The notes beneath the pieces are model-generated. The model did not search any database and was not told the origin of the DNA. It saw only the letters and a program-made list of their open reading frames with translations. A program made the position numbers and the translations under genes. A stretch of DNA of 64,000 nt, taken from contig CP131056.1 in the NCBI GenBank assembly GCA_030657355.1, positions 124,001-188,000 on the forward strand, given 5' to 3'. Source of the stretch: Radicibacter daui. GTDB lineage: Bacteria; Pseudomonadota; Alphaproteobacteria; Radicibacterales; Radicibacteraceae. Shown here piece by piece: positions 32,637-57,684 of the stretch. The number at the start of each line of letters is the position of its first letter. Positions within the stretch are counted from its first letter, which is position 1.

Positions 32637-33479
32637 TTACTGGGCCTTCGTCAGATCCACGCCGAACCACTTGACGCTCAGCTGGGCAAGCGTGCCGTCC
32701 GCCTTCAGCCCTTCCACGATCTCCTTGATCCTGGCAGTGAATTCCGGATCGCCCTTGTCGACAGCCACGGCAAGCGGCTCGAAGAAGACCGGCGGGGTCA
32801 GGATGCGGAACGGGTAGCCATTGTCGATGGCTTCCTTGAGCGTCGGCAGGTTGGTCAACACCGCATCAAGGCGCTTGCCGGCACCAAGGCGCAGATCATC
32901 AAAGGCAAGGCCGTCGGATTCATAGGTGCGGATCTCGTAATCGCCCTTGATGTAGTCGAACTTCGGCGTGCCGATCGCATCCATGTTGAGGTTCTTGCGC
33001 AGATAGTCCTCATAGGAGCAGGCCGAGCATGACCCAATGACCTTGCCGGCCAGATCATCGACCGTTTTGACGTCGGTTTCATCCTTGTGAACCGCCACAG
33101 CCGCCGGGGTGTAGTAATAAACGGCCGGGAAATCGAGCACCTCGGCGCGCTCGCGCGTCGGGGTCATGGAACCGACGGCGATGTCCCAGCGACCCGCCCA
33201 GCGGCCGGCAACCTGCGCTTCCCAGGAAGGGGTCACGATCCGGGTCTTGACGCCGAGCTTGCCGGCAATCGCCTTCAGCACTTCGACATCGAAACCATCG
33301 AACTCGTTCTTGTCGTTGAGGAAGGCAACCGGCGGATAACCGTCCGTGGAAGCCCCCACCAGCTCGCCGGATTTCATCACCCGGTCCAGCGTCTCCCCTG
33401 CAAAGGCAGGCGCACTCACCAGCGCCGCCAGCGCTACCGCCGCCGCCGCAAGGCGGCCTGTCATCTTCCTGTTCATCAT
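32637..33479 (-). CDS. Amino-acid ABC transporter substrate-binding protein (family 3)
   Basis: A 280-residue periplasmic protein with a signal peptide (MMNRKMTGRLAAAAVALAALVSAPAFA, cut near residue 27) and the SBP_bac_3 fold: LVGASTDGYPPVAF, FDGFDVEVLKAIAGKLG, WDIAVGSMTPTRERAEVLDF and a DAVLTNLPTLKEAI segment. A pair of cysteines in GSCSACSYEDYL is unusual. GGAGAC precedes two successive ATG codons (33479 and 33476), and either could be used. It is divergent from a matching permease gene, but no ATPase gene is near. Confidence 0.9.
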   Translation of the reverse strand: MMNRKMTGRLAAAAVALAALVSAPAFAGETLDRVMKSGELVGASTDGYPPVAFLNDKNEFDGFDVEVLKAIAGKLGVKTRIVTPSWEAQVAGRWAGRWDIAVGSMTPTRERAEVLDFPAVYYYTPAAVAVHKDETDVKTVDDLAGKVIGSCSACSYEDYLRKNLNMDAIGTPKFDYIKGDYEIRTYESDGLAFDDLRLGAGKRLDAVLTNLPTLKEAIDNGYPFRILTPPVFFEPLAVAVDKGDPEFTARIKEIVEGLKADGTLAQLSVKWFGVDLTKAQ

Positions 33480-33640
33480 GTCTCCGTTCGGCATCAAAAC
33501 GGTAAAGCGGCGGAGTGACGACCTAGCATCTGCCGTGTCTCTTGAAACGCCGCCTCCCCTCGCTGCAGATAAAAAGGCTAAAGTGCGCGCGCCGTCCAGC
33601 CCTTCCGCTGGCGAAAGGTTATCTTGAGGAACTTCCCTGA

Positions 33641-34606
33641 ATGCAGTCATTCCAGGCCACCCGCCTCGGCGTCTACGGCTTTCTCGCCCTGATGCTCCTC
33701 GGGGTAAATACCGGCGCAGTTCTGCCGGCCGGGCTGGCCGCAAATCTGTCATCCGTCGGTCTTGAGGGCTGGCCGCTGCGCATCCTGGGCTCCCTGCTCA
33801 TCACGGGCGCGCTCTGGCTCAATGCCCAGGCCCTGCGCCGTCTGCCCTTTCGGATGCAGGTGATCATCACCTGGCTGGAACTGGGCACCCTGTTCCTGCT
33901 GTTCTTTGCCAGCTTCAACCTTTCCTGGGGCACCATCTGGCACCGGCTGCCGGTGCTGCTCGGCCTGCAACTCAAGGATGGTTTCGTGCAAGGCGCGGCC
34001 ATGACATTGCTGGTCAGCATTGCCAGCATCGTCTTTGCCAGCATCCTTGCCATGATCGCCGCGCTCGGCCGCATGTCGAAAAACGGCCTCGCCTTCGGCA
34101 TCGCCAGTTTCTATATCTCCTTTTTCCGCGGCACCCCGCTGCTGCTGCAGGTATTGCTGATCTATCTTGGCTTGCCGCAGCTCGACATTGTGCTGGACGC
34201 TGTGCCGGCTGGAATCATCGCGCTCTCGCTATGTTACGGTGCCTATATGGCGGAGATTTTCCGGGCGGGGATCATGAGCATTCCTGCCGGCCAGCGGGAA
34301 GCCGCCTATGCTCTCGGCCTCAAGCCCGGCCTTACACTATGGCTGGTGGTGATCCCGCAGGCACTGCGCGTCATCATTCCGCCCACCGGCAACCAGTTCA
34401 TCTCCATGCTGAAGGACAGTGCCCTCGTCTCCGTCATGGGCGTGTGGGAGCTCATGTATCTCTCCCGCACCTATGGGCGAACGGACTTCAAATATATGGA
34501 GATGATGATCGCCGCCGCTCTCATCTACTGGGCTCTTTCCAGCGTGTTCGAAATCCTGCAGGCCCGGCTGGAGAAGAAATTCGGGCGCGGCATCAGCATC
34601 GTCTGA
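33641..34606 (+). CDS. Amino-acid ABC transporter permease
   Basis: A 321-residue inner-membrane protein. The first about 100 residues form three to four helices; the HisM-type permease domain starts near LKDGFVQGAAMTLLVSIASIV and has the family loop SFYISFFRGTPLLLQVLLIY and the EAA motif REAAYALGLKPGLTLWLVVIPQAL, where the ATPase docks. It is transcribed away from the binding-protein gene, separated by about 160 bases. The cognate ATPase must be elsewhere. Confidence 0.92.
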   Translation: MQSFQATRLGVYGFLALMLLGVNTGAVLPAGLAANLSSVGLEGWPLRILGSLLITGALWLNAQALRRLPFRMQVIITWLELGTLFLLFFASFNLSWGTIWHRLPVLLGLQLKDGFVQGAAMTLLVSIASIVFASILAMIAALGRMSKNGLAFGIASFYISFFRGTPLLLQVLLIYLGLPQLDIVLDAVPAGIIALSLCYGAYMAEIFRAGIMSIPAGQREAAYALGLKPGLTLWLVVIPQALRVIIPPTGNQFISMLKDSALVSVMGVWELMYLSRTYGRTDFKYMEMMIAAALIYWALSSVFEILQARLEKKFGRGISIV

Positions 34607-37693: not shown

Positions 37694-37975
37694 ATGACAA
37701 AGTCGGAACTCATACAGCGACTGGCAGAACAGAACCCCCACCTCTTTCATCGGGATGTGGAGCGGATCGTAACGACCATATTTGACTCAATCACCGACGC
37801 GCTGGCGCGCGGGGAGCGGGTCGAACTGCGCGGTTTCGGTGCGTTTTCAGTCAAGCGCCGCGATGCCCGCACCGGTCGCAATCCCCGCACCGGCGACTCC
37901 GTCGACGTATCCGAGAAGTGCGTGCCCTTCTTCAAGACGGGCAAGCAGTTGCGCGAACGGCTCAATACCGACTAA
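37694..37975 (+). CDS. ihfB: Integration host factor subunit beta
   Basis: A 93-residue HU/IHF DNA-bending protein. [26 protein letters not shown] and the arm/signature [24 protein letters not shown] fit IhfB rather than HU, as does the [15 protein letters not shown] ending. The ATG at 37694 matches the conserved N-terminus; the in-frame ATG 21 bases upstream adds residues not found in the family. lapA follows 61 bases later, the usual ihfB-lapA pair. Confidence 0.95.
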
Positions 37976-38036
37976 GGCTCATCTGTATAGAGCCCCCGGC
38001 TGGCTGAAGAGCGGCCGACATCAGGAGAGTTCCACA

Positions 38037-38387
38037 GTGCTGCGGCGTCTTGCCTGGCTGGTTTCCCTGCCAGTTATTCTGGTCATCATCTCTTTTGCCG
38101 CGAGCAATCGGGCACCGGTGACGCTGAAGCTGTGGCCACTGCCCTTTTCTTTCGACGTTCCGCTCTATCTCACGATTCTGCCTGCCTTTGCCCTCGGCTT
38201 CGTCCTCGGAGGGTCGGCATTGTGGTTTTCTGTTCTCGGCCGCCTGTGGCGGGGCCGGCGCGCCCAGCGCAAGGCCGAAAAGCTGAACGCGGAACTGGAA
38301 AAAGAACGCACGCAAGCAGCAGCCCGCGGCTCCGGCGGTGAACTCACCGGCCCGGCCTCCCAGGCCAGTCTGCCATCCGCCCGCTGA
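38037..38387 (+). CDS. LapA-domain membrane protein
   Basis: A 116-residue protein with two helices (LAWLVSLPVILVIISFAASN and LTILPAFALGFVLGGSALWF) joined by the typical APVTLKLWPLPFSFDVPLYL, then a basic coiled-coil tail (RGRRAQRKAEKLNAELEKERTQ). This is the LapA/DUF1049 architecture; E. coli LapA works with LapB in LPS assembly control. The GTG at 38037 has AGGAGA upstream. No LapB-type gene is adjacent. Confidence 0.88.
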   Translation: MLRRLAWLVSLPVILVIISFAASNRAPVTLKLWPLPFSFDVPLYLTILPAFALGFVLGGSALWFSVLGRLWRGRRAQRKAEKLNAELEKERTQAAARGSGGELTGPASQASLPSAR

Positions 38388-38440
38388 CCGCGAACGCATC
38401 CCTAGCCCCTGCACGCCCGTAACCCCAAGGAGTCCCAGCC

Positions 38441-39400
38441 ATGCGCCATGTCCTTCCGGCGGAGCTGGATGATGCGCTCGACTATCCGGGCCTGGTCGAA
38501 GCCCTGCGGGAAATTTTCCGCACCGGCGGCGAGGCGCCACAGCGCCTGCACTATCCGCTGCCGGCAACGGATAATGCAGGCAAGGAAGGCACACTTCTGC
38601 TGATGCCGGCCTGGCTTGCGGGGCGGTTCATCGGGATCAAGCTGGTAACGGTGTTTCCCCAGAACGGGCAGCTCTCCCTGCCTTCGGTACAAGGCTCCTA
38701 TCTGCTGCTCGACGGCAGCACCGGCGTGCCTCTGGCCATGATGGACGGGCCACGGCTTACGGTACGCCGTACGGCTGCGGCCTCCGCACTCGCCAGCACT
38801 TATCTGTCCAGGCCCGATGCGGCGACGCTGCTGGTGGCCGGGACCGGGGCACTGGCCCCGCACCTGCTGCGGGCCCATGCGACCGTGCGGCCCATTCGCC
38901 GCATTCTCGTCTGGGGCCGTTCCCTTGCCAGCGCAACCGGGATTGCCAGGCAAGCCGCCGCGGATACCGGCCTTGCTGTCGAGGCCGTGTCCGATCTGGC
39001 AACTGCCGCCAGCGAGGCTGACATCATTTCCTGCGCCACGCTGGCAACCAGCCCCCTGATCAAGGGAGAATGGCTACGCGCCGGCACTCATCTTGATCTT
39101 GTTGGCGGTTTCCGGCCGGACATGCGGGAAGCGGATGATGAGTGCGTGCGGCGCGCCACCTTGTTTGCCGATACCCGCAGCGGCGCCTTGCATGAGGCGG
39201 GCGACCTTGCCCAGCCCCTGCAAGCCGGCCTTATCGGCGAATCGGATATCGCAGCCGATCTCTATGATCTGACACGGGGAAACCACCCGGGCCGCCGCAG
39301 CGACACGGAGATAACCCTTTTCAAATCAGTCGGTCACGCGCTCGAGGATCTGGCGGCCGCCATTCTCTGCGCCCGCCAGCTGGGCATAACCTCCCCCTGA
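38441..39400 (+). CDS. Ornithine cyclodeaminase/mu-crystallin family reductase, probable delta1-pyrroline-2-carboxylate reductase
   Basis: A 319-residue Rossmann-fold protein of the OCD/mu-crystallin family. GTLLLMPAW, GIKLVTVFP, SYLLLDGSTGVPLAMMDGPRLTVRRTAAASALASTYL and the dinucleotide motif VAGTGALAPHLL are the patterns of members that reduce delta1-pyrroline-2-carboxylate (LhpI type) rather than of true ornithine cyclodeaminases; this assignment is an inference from memory of the subgroup. It would finish cis-3- or trans-3-hydroxyproline breakdown and so may work with the aconitase X genes at 56 kb. AAGGAG precedes the ATG. Confidence 0.78.
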   Translation: MRHVLPAELDDALDYPGLVEALREIFRTGGEAPQRLHYPLPATDNAGKEGTLLLMPAWLAGRFIGIKLVTVFPQNGQLSLPSVQGSYLLLDGSTGVPLAMMDGPRLTVRRTAAASALASTYLSRPDAATLLVAGTGALAPHLLRAHATVRPIRRILVWGRSLASATGIARQAAADTGLAVEAVSDLATAASEADIISCATLATSPLIKGEWLRAGTHLDLVGGFRPDMREADDECVRRATLFADTRSGALHEAGDLAQPLQAGLIGESDIAADLYDLTRGNHPGRRSDTEITLFKSVGHALEDLAAAILCARQLGITSP

Positions 39401-53251: not shown

Positions 53252-54748
53252 ATGTCCAAAAAAGCCGGCAATTTCATAAATATGTATTATTTACTATTTA
53301 TTCTTGTCGCAGCCTGCATATCGCTGCCAAGACATCCTCTCTTCAGCGATAATCAAAATACAAAGCTTCTCTATGGCCTGGCGAAAGCTTCTTACGGGAA
53401 CTTGCGTCACGACTGGCTGCTTAAAATTACCAATACACTTCCCTTTTTCGACGCGCTCGTTTTTGCCGTTCATCAGTTCCTTTGGGATGGCATTTTTTCT
53501 GCCCTTTATATCGCCTGTGGCCTTCTGCTCGTTTATGCCGGGCTCAAATTCTCCAGCATCCAGGAAGACAGGGCAGCAGCGCCGCTTTACAGCCTGACAG
53601 TAGGAATGTGGCTGGTCGCCCTGTTCGCGAACAACGCGACCGGGCGTTTGTTTGAGGGCGTTGCACACCAATATATTCTAGGCCACGTTTTCGAGCCGTC
53701 GAACTTCGGCGTGCTCACACTGTTTGCGGTTTTTCTGTTCTGCGCCCGCAAGCCAGGCTGGAGCGTTACCCTCATGGTAATCGCCGCCTGGATACACAAC
53801 GCCTACATTGCCCCCGGCCTGATGCTGATGCTGGGAATGCTCATCGCCCGCTGGCGTTTTGGCGGCGGGCAGGCGCCATTCCCTCTATTCACCCTGCTTG
53901 GCGGCATCGGCGGCTGCCTCTGCGCGCCCCTGTTTTCCTATAGCCTGTTGGCTCCTATCGATCCGCAGGCCCAGCTCGAAGCCTTCCGCATCATCACAAC
54001 GGAACGTATCCCCGAGCATTCATTGCCAGAGATCTGGTTTGGTGCCGACGCTGCCTTCAAGGCGATTGCAGTCGCCGCCGCCGTATGGCTCCTGCGACGA
54101 CATCCGCTTGGCTGGATTTTGGGGTTTGTGGAAGTCCTGATCGTATTGGCATCGCTCTGGGTCTGGATCATGAGAGACTTCGAACTTGCGTTCGCTGCCC
54201 CTTGGCGGGCCAGTGTAATCATCGTGCCGATAGCGAACGCCGTGCTGATCGGAAAGGCCTTCCAATGGCTCTCGCACAAGGCTGAACAAAACGGCCGCTA
54301 CCAGAAGGCTCAACTGGGGCTCGTGGTAGTGGCTGTTGTCGCGACGGGCATCTTTGCCGTCTCGAATTATCACAAGCTGGAAAAACGCGCCCAGCACCCG
54401 GCCTACTATGCCTGGGTCCAGGAGCATGCCCAGCCGAAGGATGTTTTTCTGAACGACCCGAACGACAGTAATTTCCGGCTGGCAACCGGACAGCCGCAAT
54501 ATATCAGCTGGAAAACGCACCCCTATCGCGGGCAGGAAGTTCTGGAATGGTCAGCGCGTGTGGCAAAAGCCCGCGCTGCCACGGGCAAGAAAGCCCCCTC
54601 CTGCCAGAATCTCGATGCTCTTGCTGGCGAGGCTGTCACGCATCTTGTGAGGCCCGCTACAAGCGAAAGTATTTACTGCCCGGACTGGAAGCAGGCCTAT
54701 GCCGATAAGGGAGTCGTGATCTACCAGCATCAACCGGCCGGCAACTGA
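53252..54748 (+). CDS. Polytopic membrane protein, possibly GT-C-like, unrecognised
   Basis: A 498-residue protein with about ten to eleven helices and a C-terminal soluble region of about 120 residues (HPAYYAWVQEHAQPKDVFLNDPND onward). The layout, many helices plus a periplasmic tail that follows an AYYAWVQEHxxxxxVFL block, recalls GT-C-fold sugar transferases and DUF6798-like proteins, but I cannot assign a family firmly. Its first 150 bases are clearly AT-richer than the surroundings. It follows yifB by about 190 bases and may belong functionally with the nearby polysaccharide genes. The start codon is uncertain. Confidence 0.7.
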   Translation: MSKKAGNFINMYYLLFILVAACISLPRHPLFSDNQNTKLLYGLAKASYGNLRHDWLLKITNTLPFFDALVFAVHQFLWDGIFSALYIACGLLLVYAGLKFSSIQEDRAAAPLYSLTVGMWLVALFANNATGRLFEGVAHQYILGHVFEPSNFGVLTLFAVFLFCARKPGWSVTLMVIAAWIHNAYIAPGLMLMLGMLIARWRFGGGQAPFPLFTLLGGIGGCLCAPLFSYSLLAPIDPQAQLEAFRIITTERIPEHSLPEIWFGADAAFKAIAVAAAVWLLRRHPLGWILGFVEVLIVLASLWVWIMRDFELAFAAPWRASVIIVPIANAVLIGKAFQWLSHKAEQNGRYQKAQLGLVVVAVVATGIFAVSNYHKLEKRAQHPAYYAWVQEHAQPKDVFLNDPNDSNFRLATGQPQYISWKTHPYRGQEVLEWSARVAKARAATGKKAPSCQNLDALAGEAVTHLVRPATSESIYCPDWKQAYADKGVVIYQHQPAGN

Positions 54749-54827: not shown

Positions 54828-56000
54828 ATGTCCGACAGTTTTGCCGCCACCTTCAAGACCGGCCCCATTTCCCAGCTCTTGACGCCATGCCTGCTGCTTG
54901 ACGAGATCAAGCTACGCCGGAATCTCGACAGGCTGGACGAGCGCCTTGCCGGTCTGGGGGTGACGCTGCGCCCGCATCTCAAGACGGCCAAGAGCGTGGA
55001 TGTGGCCCGCCTGGCTGTGCCGCACCGCAAGGCGCCGGCCACCGTCTCCACCTTGATGGAAGCGGAATATTTCGCGGCCGAGGGCATGCATGACCTGCTC
55101 TATGCTGTCGGCATCGCGCCGGCCAAGCTGGACCGGGTCGGCGCCATCCGCCGGCGCTACAAGGCTGCGCTTTCCATTATTCTGGACAGTGTTGAACAGG
55201 CTGAGGCTGTCACCGAATGGTGCAGACGCAGCGGCGACAAGCTGCCGGTCTTCATCGAGATTGACTGTGATGGCCACCGTTCCGGCGTGCAGCCCGGCGA
55301 GACGGAACGCCTTGTTGCCATCGGCCGTATCCTGCATGAGGGCGGCGCCATCCTGCGCGGGGTCATGACCCATGCCGGTGAAAGCTACAATCTGAACGAC
55401 CCGAAGGCACTGACCGCTGCGGCGGAAACGGAGCGCGCCGGGGCTGTCAGTGCAGCAGAGGCTCTGCGCGCTGCGGGTCTGCCCTGCCCCGTCGTCAGTG
55501 TCGGCTCCACACCCACCGCCCATTTCGCCCGAAACCTCGAGGGCGTCACCGAAGTGCGCGCCGGCGTCTATATGTTCAGCGACCTTGTGCAGGCTGGCAT
55601 CGGCGTTTGCGGCGTAGAAGATATCGCTCTTTCCGTTCTCGCAACGGTTATCGGCCATCAAAGGAGCAAGGGTTGGATTATTGTCGATGCCGGCTGGATG
55701 GCGATGTCGCGCGACCGCGGTACGGCGAGCCAGACGGTGGATCAGGGTTACGGCGTGGTGTGCGACCTTGCTGGCACCCCATATCCCGATCTCATCATGC
55801 CCGGCGCCAACCAGGAACATGGCGTCCTCGCCCTGCGGCCCGGCAGCAACGCCGCCCTGCCTGACCTTAAACTGGGCGACAAGGTGCGCATCCTGCCCAA
55901 CCACGCCTGCGCCACCGGCGCCCAGCATGACCGCTACCACGTTGTCCACGGTGCGGAGGCAGACGTAAAAGCCATCTGGCCGCGCATCAACGGCTGGTAA
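54828..56000 (+). CDS. D-threonine aldolase/DSD1 family PLP-dependent enzyme
   Basis: A 390-residue fold-type III PLP enzyme. The N-terminus [18 protein letters not shown] leads to RPHLKTAKS, with the PLP lysine in the (R)PHxKT motif; the C-terminal metal site is [19 protein letters not shown] (HxC). The family includes D-threonine aldolase, D-serine and 3-hydroxy-D-aspartate dehydratases; the reaction here is not decided by sequence. AGGAG precedes the ATG at 54828. It is 14 bases from the aconitase X gene, so the three form one operon. Confidence 0.88.
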
Positions 56001-56014
56001 GACACAGACAGAAG

Positions 56015-57259
56015 ATGGCACTGCAGCTCGACGCCCGGGACGAAGCCCTGCTGGCCGGAGATGAGGGGCCGGCCGCGGCCTTTGCCATGCGGTTGCTACG
56101 GCAATTCGCCGAGGCAGTGGAAGCCACACATTTCATTGATGCAGAGGCAGCCCACATCGATGGCTGCCTCTATCTGGGGGCCGCCAGCCTTGATTTTGTC
56201 GAGCATCTGGCGGCGCTCGGCGGCAAGGTGCGGGTGCCGACCACGCTGAATGTCGGCTCGATGGATCTGATCCACCCGGAACTCTTTCAGGGCTCGGCGG
56301 AGAGCGCCGATAACGGCGCCCGTCTCATGCGGGCGCACGAAGCGCTTGGCTGCTTGCCGACCTTCACCTGTGCGCCTTACCAGACAATGTTTCGTCCCCG
56401 GCTCGGTCAGCAGATTGCCTGGGCGGAATCCAATGCCATCGTCTTTGCCAATTCGGTCATCGGCGCACGCACCAACCGTTATGGCGACTTTATCGATCTG
56501 TGCTGCGCCATTACCGGCCGCGTGCCCTGTTATGGACTTCACATCACCGAAAACCGCCGTGCCCGGGTTCATCTGGCGATCGAAAACCTTCCGCCGGAAT
56601 GGCAGGATCCGCAACTCGCCTGCATCGCCGCCGGTTACCTGGCCGGCAAATCATGCGGCGACAGGGTGCCCGTCATCACCGGCTTGCCCCAAGCCGCCAG
56701 CGAGGATGATCTGAAAGCACTCGGCGCCGTGGCGGCTTCTGCCGGCGCGGTTGCGCTCTTCCACGCTGTCGGCCTGACCCCGGAAGCCCCGACACTGGAG
56801 GCGGCTTGCCAGGGTGCGGCGCCCGACGAGCATATTGCGCTCACAGCAGACGACCTGCGGCGCGCCATTGCCCAACTTTCTCTCGTGCCTGACAGCAGCC
56901 CGCTCAGCGCCGTCAGCCTCGGCACACCGCATTTTTCGCTCGCCGAGTTCGAAAAGCTGATGCCGCTGCTGGCAGGCAGACAGCTTGCCATCGACTGTTT
57001 CATCAATACCGGACGCGAGACGCTGGCGGTGCTCACGGCACGGGGGTGGGAAGAAGTCCTCAGGGCGGCCGGCATCACGCTGGTCACCGACACCTGCACC
57101 TATGTGACCGCCATCCTGCGGGAACTGAACGGCACGGTGATGACAAACTCCGGCAAATGGGCTTATTACGCTCCCGGAAATATTGGTGTCTCCGTGGCTT
57201 TCGGTTCGCTTGAGGACTGCATCGCCTCCGCCGCAGCCGGCAAGGTGGTCCGGCTATGA
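56015..57259 (+). CDS. Aconitase X large (catalytic) subunit, probable cis-3-hydroxy-L-proline dehydratase
   Basis: A 414-residue AcnX_large (DUF521) protein. [56 protein letters not shown] is a family signature, seen here at about residues 118-174, and [12 protein letters not shown] and DTCTYVTAI lie near the C-terminus. Bacterial AcnX proteins studied so far dehydrate cis-3-hydroxy-L-proline to delta1-pyrroline-2-carboxylate, whereas the archaeal branch acts on mevalonate phosphate; the first is favoured by the alphaproteobacterial context. It overlaps the small-subunit gene by four bases (ATGA). Confidence 0.9.
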
Positions 57260-57684
57260 CATCCATCACGCTGAACGGGGCCACGCTCGCCCCCGGCACT
57301 GCGACAGGCAGCCCCTTCCTGCTCAGCGAACCGCTCAGCTTCTGGGGCGGTTTTGACAGCACCGCCGGCACGATCATTGATCGGCGCCACCCCCAGCTCG
57401 GCAGCTACCTCACGGGCCGGATCATGCTGATGAGCGCCGGCCGGGGTTCCTGTTCCGGCAGCTCCGTTCTTGCCGAGGCCATCCGCCGGGGATCGGCACC
57501 TGCAGGCATCATCCTGCTGGCCCGCGATGCCATCGTGACGGTGGGCGCGCTGGTCGCGGCAGAGCTCTACCAGCGGCACTGCCCGGTGGTACTGGCGGGC
57601 GCAGCGGACTGGTCGCAGCTGGGCAAGGCCGACCGGGTAACCATCGACGCCAGGTCCGAGACGGCAGAACTCCGGCTTGGCTAG
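57256..57684 (+). CDS. Aconitase X small (swivel-domain) subunit
   Basis: A 142-residue AcnX_small (DUF126) protein. [24 protein letters not shown] is followed by the signature [29 protein letters not shown], whose SxSGSS serines are at the substrate end of the swivel domain. Together with the large subunit it makes a two-subunit aconitase X, in contrast to single-chain bacterial forms. The stop lies nine bases from the end of a convergent gene. Confidence 0.9.

Follow-up and report, generated by a model that had tools for sequence, protein, structure and literature searches.

The window, a 64,000-nucleotide stretch of the Radicibacter daui genome (contig CP131056.1, positions 124,001 to 188,000), carries three tightly spaced open reading frames (ORFs) on one strand, encoding a pyridoxal phosphate (PLP) enzyme of fold III (P0001) and the two subunits of an aconitase X (AcnX; P0002 and P0003; Table 1). 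Chance ORFs are excluded by their Pfam matches, which for P0001 were to Ala_racemase_N (9.8e-28) and D-ser_dehydrat (6.2e-26), and for the following genes to AcnX and AcnX_swivel. The sequence AGGAG lies directly 5' of the P0001 start, the P0001 stop is separated from the P0002 start by 14 bp, and P0002 and P0003 overlap by 4 bp (ATGA), an overlap also found in 70 related loci. The 14 bp gap suggests co-transcription of P0001 with the AcnX pair, which would fit a functional link; a scan for promoters and terminators gave no usable signal. The first-pass annotation had described three coupled genes within a catabolic operon for hydroxyproline or a related hydroxy amino acid. The coupling was confirmed, and the term operon can at most cover these three genes, as the reductase and transporter genes that it also invoked are 15–22 kb away with many unrelated genes in between. 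A DUF6798 membrane protein gene (53252-54748, + strand) ends 79 bp 5' of P0001 on the same strand and may also be co-transcribed. The genome encodes a single AcnX and, at the threshold used, two members of the PLP enzyme family.

Table 1. Genes discussed in the text, with positions in the window.
Feature	Position	Strand	Basis or size
PLP fold-III dehydratase, D-threo-3-hydroxyaspartate/D-serine (DSD1) branch (predicted)	54828..56000	+	P0001, 390 aa
Aconitase X large subunit	56015..57259	+	P0002; AcnX (PF04412) 1e-128, residue pattern, tree
Aconitase X small (swivel) subunit, carrying the catalytic serine	57256..57684	+	P0003, 142 aa; AcnX_swivel (PF01989) 6.4e-23
OCD-family delta1-pyrroline-2-carboxylate (P2C) reductase, candidate partner in trans, outside the operon	38441..39400	+	NF004793

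The AcnX pair was compared with the described types of the family. Residues binding cis-3-hydroxy-L-proline (C3LHyp) in the type I enzyme from Agrobacterium and mevalonate 5-phosphate in the type IIb enzyme from Thermococcus have been reported, and type IIa is stated to combine retained C3LHyp sites with only two cluster cysteines (PMC8184944); its Azospirillum member is a C3LHyp dehydratase. Residues were mapped through HMMER alignments to 7CNQ and 7CNR, the PDB sequence being offset by 10 relative to the numbering of the paper. The pair retains W35, S70, C71, D203, N233, C273, E292, S293, N294, C508, K530 and Y534, the first three on the small subunit, and has two conservative replacements at C3LHyp contacts, T72S (also on the small subunit) and I206L, so that all nine C3LHyp-binding positions (W35, S70, T72, D203, I206, E292, S293, K530, Y534) are kept or conservatively changed. 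P0002 has Thr at S449 and Tyr at C510, leaving two cluster cysteines (C273 and C508); around C510, HMMER aligned DLCWC of the reference to DTCTY, and MAFFT shifted the gap with the single cysteine unchanged. When all retrieved relatives were aligned, this large-subunit residue pattern recurred in 85 rows.

A tree of 61 AcnX rows (quick IQ-TREE) grouped P0002 with heterodimeric enzymes in the sister clade of type I (support 98), apart from both type IIb and two further AcnX groups with other landmark residues; the IIb row sits on a long branch and its own position is unsure, which leaves that of P0002 unaffected. The catalytic Ser, Glu, Lys and Tyr as well as the substrate contacts are those of type I LhpI (7CNP/7CNQ), but the latter is a single chain with a third cluster cysteine, Cys510, whereas here two genes are found, with Tyr at that site. 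An identity as a mevalonate-5-phosphate (IIb) enzyme was rejected on tree position and residues, with Thr at 449, no third cysteine, and Asp, Leu, Trp and Ser instead of Ala, Ser, Leu and Val at D203, I206, W35 and T72. The curated model for C3LHyp dehydratase, NF051439, which was built on fused enzymes, scored 384 and 128 bits for the two subunits, below its cut-off of 700. Judged by the published landmark residues and by branching beside type I, the pair is best placed as a putative type IIa, bacterial heterodimeric C3LHyp dehydratase, and the large subunit falls, as had been anticipated, in the hydroxyproline branch and away from the archaeal mevalonate branch. The pair shares with the type IIa enzyme of Azospirillum brasilense and others (Watanabe 2017, as cited in PMC8184944 and PMC10040528) the separate subunits, the C3LHyp residues and the two cluster cysteines, and differs in having a DSD1-type gene upstream, seen in no other examined locus, and in the residue at the Cys71 position. 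There P0003 has Cys (WSCS) like type I, whereas 90 relatives from its own clade have Ser (WSSS).

Neighbourhoods were compared in 80 loci from GTDB genomes, supplemented with plasmid loci and longer stretches from members of the class; genes in these GC-rich loci were called with a codon-based script. The small subunit directly follows the large one in 96 loci. In four lineages of the P0002 clade (L037, L057, L182, L034), AcnX lies near a P2C reductase or hydroxyproline genes: an Ldh_2-type reductase overlaps AcnX at -1 in L057, and a 4-hydroxyproline epimerase is found at +2 in L182 and at +4 in the Caballeronia locus L034, there followed by an LhpC-like gene at +5. In Phaeobacter, a 48% homologue of the OCD gene in the window adjoins AcnX. 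The survey thereby ties the clade, through gene neighbourhood, to two unrelated families of P2C reductases. Many other loci contain AcnX as a pair on its own or preceded by an ABC transporter, and hydroxyproline genes are absent next to AcnX in the closest relatives of the R. daui pair (73%, Rhizobiaceae).

This variety, with closest relatives that are mostly stand-alone pairs and upstream transporters ranging from the MetNIQ type (Sinorhizobium) to the PotABCD type (Mesorhizobium), could be taken to mean that this subclade has drifted to another beta-hydroxy acid and that the hydroxyproline reading is wrong for it, the more so as the Asp binding the ring nitrogen is lost in some members of the wider clade (L013, L036). 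We regard such a drift as unlikely, since P0002 retains this Asp and the other contacts, and groups neither with IIb nor with the two groups having other landmarks; a C3LHyp dehydratase remains the preferred assignment. The survey does reveal variants of the clade without the ring-nitrogen contact. In the AcnX of the Pseudomonas sp. MPC6 plasmid (L036, 10001-11242) and of genome G113 (L013/L166) Asn or Gly takes the place of the Asp, nearby contacts also differ, and another substrate may be used; the MPC6 gene is flanked by genes for a class II aldolase, an SDR and a glycine betaine transporter. Among the other AcnX groups in the class (L023-L032), eight carry the motif MxDCDTGA..CKI, with Asp, Thr and Gly at the positions of Glu292, Ser293 and Asn294, while L025 and L029 have Cys at the 449 site.

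P0001 was most similar to the D-threo-3-hydroxyaspartate dehydratase from Delftia (3WQC; 57% identity over the whole chain, 423 bits), which together with 3LLX constituted its best solved relatives, followed by D-serine dehydratase (212 bits), with BhcC (99 bits) and D-threonine aldolase (D-TA; 78–96 bits) far behind. The metal motif, NHACAT at residue 359, is of the His-x-Cys kind; metal ligands are His/Asp in D-TA and His/Cys in the dehydratases (PMC4401734). Both the HAC motif and the C-terminal end are shared with the enzyme from Delftia sp. HT23, whose neighbouring gene differs. Identity as a D-TA was rejected on the scores and on the lack of a His-x-Asp motif, and BhcC fitted neither in score nor in metal motif. 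P0001, which had been labelled D-TA family at first, instead belongs, by its two domains and metal site, to the DSD1 branch within that fold-III superfamily, and is, on this basis, a predicted dehydratase of the 3-hydroxyaspartate/D-serine type with a putative substrate range; the Delftia enzyme acts on D-threo- and L-erythro-3-hydroxyaspartate (PMC8071972). The second fold-III enzyme in the genome (L168, contig 2, 8353-9456) is 30% identical to P0001, matches the BhcC model best (200 bits, cut-off 690) and is immediately preceded by a RidA-like gene on the opposite strand.

PLP enzymes of fold III bind their substrate as an external aldimine and require a primary amine, while prolines are secondary amines, and hydroxyproline is therefore an unlikely substrate for P0001. 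The proposal of the first-pass annotation, that the PLP enzyme supplies an extra step of hydroxyproline catabolism, with a derived D-hydroxy amino acid as its substrate, draws on the adjacency in this one genome. It conflicts with this established chemistry, with the finding of the pairing in no other locus examined and with the lack of a P0001-type gene in those AcnX relatives whose neighbourhood does include hydroxyproline genes, and we consider it highly improbable. The hydroxyproline part of that first reading is still the best inference for the AcnX pair; the extra D-amino-acid step fails, with P0001 being assigned as a dehydratase rather than an aldolase.

About 98 other AcnX loci were compared, and not one had a P0001-type gene beside AcnX. 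Only three loci (L051, L072, L119) encode a homologue, 30–35% identical to P0001 and three to five genes from AcnX, and as L051 and L072 are both from Bauldia and sister to each other, this corresponds to approximately two lineages, which we judged to be near chance; a conserved D-TA/DSD-AcnX neighbourhood was rejected on this ground. Conversely, AcnX was not found near P0001 homologues in any of 46 loci, of which 29 were viewed to 1.5 kb, nine to approximately 9 kb and eight, on plasmids, to 8 kb (one to the end of the record), with some genes seen at two widths and the number of distinct genes accordingly smaller. Homologues with 60–70% identity to P0001 adjoin genes for RidA, an FAD oxidoreductase, an aldehyde dehydrogenase, OCD or PdxA2/four-carbon kinase. 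Among the loci examined the link was confined to this genome, the outcome that the first-pass annotation had itself named as refuting its proposal; the survey included no other genome of the order, and very near records may be missing from it.

A possible alternative, albeit an unlikely one, is that the three genes form one scavenging unit for beta-hydroxy amino acids, in which AcnX would take cyclic 3-hydroxyproline and the PLP enzyme the acyclic substrates 3-hydroxyaspartate or D-serine, all drawn from a shared source such as non-ribosomal peptides or proteins. The single strand and short gap are compatible with this, and within the class both families co-occur above expectation (13 of 39 AcnX genomes versus 56 of 372, Fisher p 0.003), in a hand count that is uncorrected for kinship and genome size and silent on adjacency. 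Against such a unit, neither survey revealed a second adjacency, and the P0001 homologues have other neighbours, among them genes for RidA, an FAD oxidoreductase and an aldehyde dehydrogenase. That the operon would be dedicated to salvage from one peptide or protein source, by two unrelated metallo-dehydratases (the Fe-S AcnX and the PLP/metal enzyme), is quite unlikely. The AcnX pair and P0001 are ordinary members of known families in an unusual pairing, and this pairing is probably incidental, a local arrangement of this lineage and a curiosity more than a pathway.

The product of AcnX had been proposed to be reduced by a protein of the OCD family encoded in the window, and this gene (Table 1) indeed matched the curated model for P2C/Pip2C reductases, NF004793, with 401.8 bits (cut-off 322), but it is located 15 kb from AcnX and outside its operon. 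As the only other OCD gene in the genome is EutC and no Ldh_2-type reductase was found in the genome, it is the only recognizable candidate for completing the C3LHyp route, in trans. It is part of a gene string (37694-39400) behind IHF-beta- and LapA-like genes, names given by sequence only, and seems to belong to this string rather than to AcnX. The amino-acid binding protein and permease genes named as the transporter are present (32637-34606), divergent to each other and approximately 20 kb from AcnX; they match cystine transporter models best, below cut-off, and nothing was found tying them to AcnX. With a 4-hydroxyproline epimerase encoded on another contig, these genes do not amount to a hydroxyproline cluster around AcnX.

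From the families, residues, tree position and neighbourhoods, we infer as the likely reading that the AcnX pair is a type IIa C3LHyp dehydratase and P0001 a separate dehydratase, the two not catalyzing consecutive steps of one pathway. In the heterodimer, the small-subunit serine would abstract the C2 proton of C3LHyp and the large subunit's Fe-S cluster, with two cysteines and probably the conserved glutamate as ligands, would take the C3 hydroxyl; the dehydration product would tautomerize to delta1-pyrroline-2-carboxylate, which the OCD protein could reduce to L-proline in trans. P0001 would dehydrate, in a PLP- and metal-dependent reaction, a beta-hydroxy amino acid that carries a primary amine, candidates being 3-hydroxyaspartate (D-threo or L-erythro) and D-serine, to yield a keto acid and ammonia. 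Both activities are probably co-transcribed, yet would not follow one another in a pathway. The locus adds one more predicted heterodimeric type IIa AcnX, a type for which the nature of the cluster, having only two cysteine ligands, is unsettled (PMC8184944, PMC10040528).

Genes related to hydroxyproline and ectoine metabolism were also found elsewhere in the genome. The epimerase gene on contig 2 (586.5 bits, cut-off 376) is accompanied by genes for a D-amino-acid dehydrogenase-like protein and a member of the DHDPS family, a cluster that favours the hydroxyproline reading of AcnX, and three more Pro_racemase-family genes lie within 10 kb on contig 1. In the hydroxyproline-like cluster L176 (4177-14197; contig 1, approximately 3172–3182 kb), at least two Pro_racemase-family genes, none of these racemase-type genes scoring over any curated cut-off, occur with two aldehyde dehydrogenases, a GMC oxidoreductase-like gene, a DHDPS-family gene and an amino-acid ABC transporter. 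Ectoine utilization genes are located at 1450–1469 kb on contig 1 (L178), where EutC scored 535.9 (cut-off 471.65).
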